Made by a program: the position numbers and the translations under genes. A DNA stretch of 64,000 nt from Leptotrichia trevisanii DSM 22070. GTDB lineage: Bacteria > Fusobacteriota > Fusobacteriia > Fusobacteriales > Leptotrichiaceae. This document shows positions 53,458 through 53,524 of the stretch, in pieces. The stretch is from positions 1 to 64,000 of the forward strand of contig NZ_AXVL01000004.1 of assembly GCF_000482505.1 (NCBI RefSeq). Direction: 5' to 3'. How positions within the stretch are numbered: position 1 is the first letter of the stretch; every line of letters begins with the position of its first letter. The notes under the pieces are model-generated. The model was not told the origin of the DNA, did no database searches, and worked only from the letters and a program-made list of their open reading frames with translations.

Positions 53458-53524
53458 AAACCTCCATAATTGCTTAAATTTAATAAAATATTTACTATAT
53501 TAAAATTAAACCATATGGAGGTTT
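53458..53524 (-). promoter_or_regulatory. Candidate Shine-Dalgarno-masking hairpin
   Basis: On the minus strand AAACCTCCATA (53524-53514) is the perfect complement of TATGGAGGTTT (53468-53458), which contains the GGAGG ribosome site of the OmpA lipoprotein. The loop is 45 bases. If the transcript begins upstream of 53524, this 11-bp stem would close the site. Confidence 0.5.

Follow-up and report, generated by a model that had tools for sequence, protein, structure and literature searches.

On the minus strand of contig NZ_AXVL01000004.1, the genome of Leptotrichia trevisanii DSM 22070 encodes an OmpA-family lipoprotein whose ribosome-binding site lies in one arm of a long hairpin, which we analysed here within a window of 64,000 nucleotides (nt), positions 1 to 64,000 of the contig. 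The gene (52268..53455; MKKRQIIIGLGILALVFCINAC...) is defined by its open reading frame (ORF), by full-length orthologues and by a Pfam OmpA match of 2e-22, and its product has a lipobox, GAGQY-type repeats and a C-terminal OmpA domain. The Shine-Dalgarno (SD) sequence GGAGG lies on the minus strand at 53461..53465, 5 nt before the ATG at 53455, and the string GGAGGTTT(TT)ATG at the start of the gene is kept in Fusobacterium. The ORF listing takes an in-frame ATG, at 53467, as the first codon, but because this ATG belongs to the SD-containing arm of the hairpin and MKKRQ is the conserved start we place the start codon at 53455.

On the plus strand the two arms read AAACCTCCATA at 53458-53468 and TATGGAGGTTT at 53514-53524, with 100% complementarity and a spacing of 45 nt. 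Since the lipoprotein gene is on the minus strand, the anti-SD arm is the 5' arm AAACCTCCATA at 53524-53514 and the SD arm is the 3' arm TATGGAGGTTT at 53468-53458, with 2 nt between its 3' end and the ATG. An earlier note on this DNA had reported a perfect 11-bp stem with GGAGG in one arm, which is exact at these positions. Its description of a 45-base loop was right for the spacing but not for an open loop: the AU-rich inner part (53469..53513) is itself paired (6+7+3 bp) in the predicted fold. All structural statements on the hairpin are thermodynamic predictions. The whole 67 nt forms one near-continuous extended hairpin with a minimum free energy of -23.7 kcal/mol (z -4.85), compared to -10.3 +/- 2.8 kcal/mol for shuffled sequences, 0/200 of which folded as well; the 11-bp stem alone with an unpaired 45-nt loop evaluates to -12.2 kcal/mol. 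The pairs around the SD keep a probability of about 1.0 in predicted transcripts of up to 1.3 kb, and when the anti-SD arm is changed in silico, opening the SD costs 1.8 instead of 13.6 kcal/mol. Fold, opening cost and pair probabilities thus lend strong computational support to the earlier proposal that the ribosome site is closed by this pairing in every transcript carrying both arms. The leader also contains an imperfect 21-nt direct repeat (76%; window 53506-53526 and 53545-53565), one copy being the region of the anti-SD arm and the other, ATAAACTTTTATATGTTTCAA, lying 39 nt upstream; a duplication of this kind may have given rise to the anti-SD arm.

The strength of this lock was compared with that of 291 SD-bearing genes called in the window and 400 kb of the same genome. 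The opening cost of 13.6 kcal/mol stands against a mean of 1.46 (standard deviation 1.38) and a next highest value of 5.6 kcal/mol, and the longest perfect SD-containing stem elsewhere among these genes is 5 bp. In 873,000 Markov-resampled leaders the probability of an SD stem of at least 11 bp was 2.9e-5 per gene, or 1.4e-4 with the composition of the lipoprotein gene itself, and none of 3,492 resampled leaders reached 13.6 kcal/mol. By extrapolation to about 2,700 genes (our estimate for 2.85 Mb) some 0.08 such stems are expected per genome, so that a stem this long is unusual, though not impossible when many genomes are scanned. It could then be a product of chance or a mutational by-product in an AT-rich leader, for example of a short template switch that inversely copied the SD region, with no regulatory role. 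The expected number per genome is compatible with this idea and the per-gene probability of about 3e-5 speaks against it. Moreover, a lock of 13.6 kcal/mol would leave hairpin-bearing mRNA nearly untranslated, and if such mRNA is transcribed the hairpin could hardly be without effect.

The same stability bears on the triggers that had been proposed. SD sequences held in a helix are known from RNA thermometers, and the earlier note had named temperature as one possible signal. The opening cost is 14.5, 13.6, 12.9 and 11.6 kcal/mol at 30, 37, 42 and 50 C, a drop of less than 3 kcal/mol over the range, and the perfect helix is prolonged by the inner one and lacks the mismatched melting region usual in thermometers. 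With 11.6 kcal/mol still to be paid at 50 C the lock is too strong, and a thermometer is therefore extremely improbable. A ligand, the second suggested trigger, is not supported either, and a known riboswitch was rejected: no aptamer-like part or ligand-binding domain is conserved in three orthologues, Rfam gave no match at gathering score in the window, and other Rfam hits were chance-level microRNA matches (E 4-9).

A search of 96 genomes of the order, along with plasmids and viral contigs, found three Leptotrichiaceae and two Fusobacterium records of the lipoprotein, plus distant Firmicutes. Full-length orthologues occur in Leptotrichia hongkongensis (88% identity), in a single genome from a second Leptotrichiaceae genus (76%), in F. 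vincentii (68%) and in F. animalis (65%), and the distant ones in Lachnoanaerobaculum and Kandleria (51-56%). The F. vincentii record, NZ_CP084075.1 (2.1 Mb), is labelled as plasmid pSB055A and has a chromosome-like size. Within Leptotrichia the protein is present in 2 of 13 genomes and absent from most, and this patchy distribution suggests horizontal transfer among oral and gut anaerobes. The lock is retained in L. hongkongensis, where the opening cost is 9.99 kcal/mol, the inner helix is shortened and 11 pairs remain, three of them G-U, each left by one of three substitutions in the arms. The other Leptotrichiaceae genus (3.9 kcal/mol) and Fusobacterium (1.1-1.6 kcal/mol) have no lock; it therefore arose or was kept only in part of Leptotrichia. 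Three orthologous leaders are too few for a covariation test. The G-U pairs kept in L. hongkongensis are suggestive without reaching significance, as 16% of random triple arm substitutions keep as much of the lock. The presence of the hairpin in only two closely related species and the substitutions that weaken it in one of them, where it is kept no better than expected, fit a by-product; weighed with the rarity and strength of the stem, we regard this explanation as unlikely.

The hairpin is single-copy in the genome, its exact pattern occurs in one of 33 genomes of the family, and CCTCC...GGAGGTTTNNATG was not found elsewhere in the 13 Leptotrichia genomes. A multicopy element or mobile inverted repeat is ruled out by these counts. 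A DNA operator or invertible promoter is less likely because the DNA repeat of L. hongkongensis has three mismatches, all of which are G-U pairs in RNA; the identical orientation of the hairpin in both species also makes a DNA-level symmetry less likely.

The lock depends sharply on the 5' end of the message. In the truncation series leaders beginning at or before 53524 had an opening cost of about 15 kcal/mol, whereas from about 53515 onwards the cost was about 1.3 kcal/mol, and the position of the transcription start therefore decides everything. We searched for promoters with a model (TTGAyA-17-TGnTATAAT) learned from 195 leaders of the genome, for which real leaders have a median score of 3.9 vs 1.4 for shuffled ones (90th percentile of shuffled 4.35). 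No good promoter was found within 260 nt of the lipoprotein gene. The best match in this region is a weak candidate on the minus strand (53505..53532; TAGTAA, 16 nt, TGG-TTTAAT, with the -10 at 53510-53505). This site, TAGTAA-16-TGGTTTAAT, scores 2.69, places TGGTTTAAT at -55 and implies a start near 53498, inside the loop; it is also the second best site in L. hongkongensis, with a score of 2.56. An extended -10-like element (TGGTTTAAT, TGTTTTAAT and TGGTTTAAT) stands at the loop start in all three Leptotrichiaceae orthologues. In Fusobacterium nucleatum the median 5' untranslated region (5'UTR) is 39 nt (PMC11005410), a length that would place the start of the lipoprotein transcript inside the loop. 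Given this median and the weak conserved extended -10, a start within the loop is quite possible, and the hairpin would then silence read-through messages instead of switching the gene's own message.

Two genes lie directly upstream in the same direction on the minus strand: an ORF of 109 aa with no known family (53562..53891; ORF list and domain search), whose stop codon is 37 nt from the hairpin, and next to it a gene for a PHP-domain phosphoesterase (53909..54760; ORF and domain). A scan restricted to loops of 3-8 found no terminator between the 109-aa ORF and the lipoprotein gene. The hairpin, AAACCUCC...GGAGGUUUUU, could itself end the PHP/109-aa transcript as an intrinsic terminator overlapping the lipoprotein SD. 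It has an A-tract, a G-C core and five U after the core, it follows the stop codon closely, no other terminator was found between the genes, and Fusobacterium is known to have G-rich terminators inside operons, ahead of genes (PMC11005410). Against this stand the length of 67 nt and the AU-rich composition of the hairpin, whose lower stem includes no more than four G-C pairs; of the five U three take part in stem pairing, and an AUG comes next. The scan, limited to short loops, did not report the hairpin, and the other genus has not kept it. We consider a terminator at this site very doubtful.

The reading that we tentatively favour is that the hairpin silences transcripts running in from the co-directional genes upstream. 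Long transcripts from the PHP/109-aa genes would carry both arms, and their SD would be locked. From a start within the hairpin (near 53498, 5'UTR of about 43 nt) the gene itself would produce a short transcript that lacks the anti-SD arm and would be freely translated. The computed masking of the SD, its exceptional strength, the lock kept by L. hongkongensis and the dependence on the 5' end speak for this reading, as do the fusobacterial 5'UTR length, the -10-like element at the loop start and the adjacent co-directional genes, with no other terminator-like site found between them and the lipoprotein gene; the occurrence of read-through, like the start within the loop, is what we infer. Several results weigh against this reading. 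In the 2.5 kb before the gene no promoter reached a score above 4, so that read-through stays a supposition. The score of the candidate promoter with its start in the loop falls within the shuffled range (median 1.44) and is not significant, and its -10 is without the key A. The retention of the lock in L. hongkongensis is statistically unremarkable for so small a divergence, as seen from the random substitutions above. Finally, the best promoter of L. hongkongensis, TTGACT-15-TGATATACT, scores 7.7 and stands about 207 nt ahead of the ATG, and an mRNA from it would bear the hairpin.

This last promoter, far enough upstream to include the hairpin, is what a default-off 5'UTR switch would have, in which the lipoprotein mRNA itself starts upstream of 53524 and a trans-acting factor opens the hairpin: a small RNA (sRNA) complementary to the anti-SD arm, an RNA-binding protein or cleavage by an RNase. 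The masking of the SD is strong and specific, such a leader could include a conserved block that lies shortly before the hairpin, and fusobacterial sRNAs are known to target G-rich stretches (PMC11005410). On the other side, a search of the genome for sRNA-like sequences complementary to the anti-SD arm gave nothing convincing, the only exact complement being that at the locus itself; Rfam gives no match, the other genus has not kept the anti-SD arm and a stable alternative fold trapping it was not seen. Such a switch is in our view a lesser possibility, and its fuller version, a Leptotrichia-limited cis-regulatory leader that keeps the envelope lipoprotein off until a fusobacterial sRNA, protein or nuclease opens the hairpin, would be unlikely.

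The conserved block, TTTCAAAGGTTAAATAAA (53533..53550, minus strand), is the best conserved upstream block in the alignment of the three Leptotrichiaceae orthologues; the 5' arm, between this block and the -10-like site, is the variable part of their leaders. The block is kept although the upstream neighbours differ: judged by eye, these are a methyltransferase-like gene in L. hongkongensis and a transaldolase-like gene in the other genus. Without mismatch it occurs only at these orthologue loci. As a shared regulon motif it was rejected, since a reversed control matches just as often when two mismatches are allowed, and a small ORF just before the hairpin (MFQRLNK*) was discarded too, having no SD and an ATG that is ATA in L. 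hongkongensis. In the latter species (L031, 2785-3000) the last codons of the 109-aa ORF (ILDITHISI*) are left as a remnant before the hairpin and adjoin the good promoter, an apparent deletion having fused the promoter to the leader. In F. animalis a LemA-family gene lies 19 nt upstream of the orthologue, which is the last gene of what looks like an operon, DUF2207-DUF2207-GNAT-LemA-OmpA, on a 219-kb plasmid record (L114, 1-5206). Its product lacks the lipobox cysteine, in place of which there seems to be a plain membrane anchor.

Read-through silencing has a close precedent in phage T4, where hairpins mask the ribosome site of gene e (lysozyme), soc, 49 and I-TevI in long transcripts initiated upstream; for gene e the activity of the long transcripts is about 100-fold lower, and the 5' strand of the hairpin is overlapped by late promoters (PMC3014915). 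In L. trevisanii, too, the SD is predicted to pair stably with an upstream arm and to be free in an mRNA that begins 3' of the 5' arm, and the candidate promoter, here a weak one, overlaps the region encoding the 5' strand. Unlike gene e, the lipoprotein is encoded by a bacterial chromosomal gene, and no early/late programme is known for it. The gene e model is in our view the most economical reading of the locus. Insertion sequences of the IS10/IS50 type use an inverted repeat to mask the transposase SD only in transcripts that enter from outside; in contrast, there is no transposase or insertion sequence at the hairpin, and its repeat is single-copy. With SD-sequestering switches (riboswitches, thermometers and leaders of the DsrA/rpoS type) the hairpin shares an anti-SD arm upstream of the SD, but it has no aptamer, Rfam match or known activator RNA and is far too stable to melt. 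FoxJ activates intra-operonic terminators in Fusobacterium nucleatum (PMC11005410). These belong to the same phylum and likewise have a G-rich hairpin followed by U between co-directional genes, but there the G stretch is inside the terminator of the upstream gene whereas here it is the SD itself, so that a C-rich sRNA bound to it should prevent translation.

As a silencer of read-through transcripts the hairpin would be a new example of a known device. It is a clear single-gene outlier in its genome, and the 5' end of the message separates a read-through silencer from a true switch. To our knowledge very little is known about translational control in Leptotrichia. If the silencer reading is true, a trick of the phage and transposon type would be at work in a chromosomal envelope gene, the same gene that Fusobacterium has right behind a LemA-family gene, as an ordinary part of an operon.
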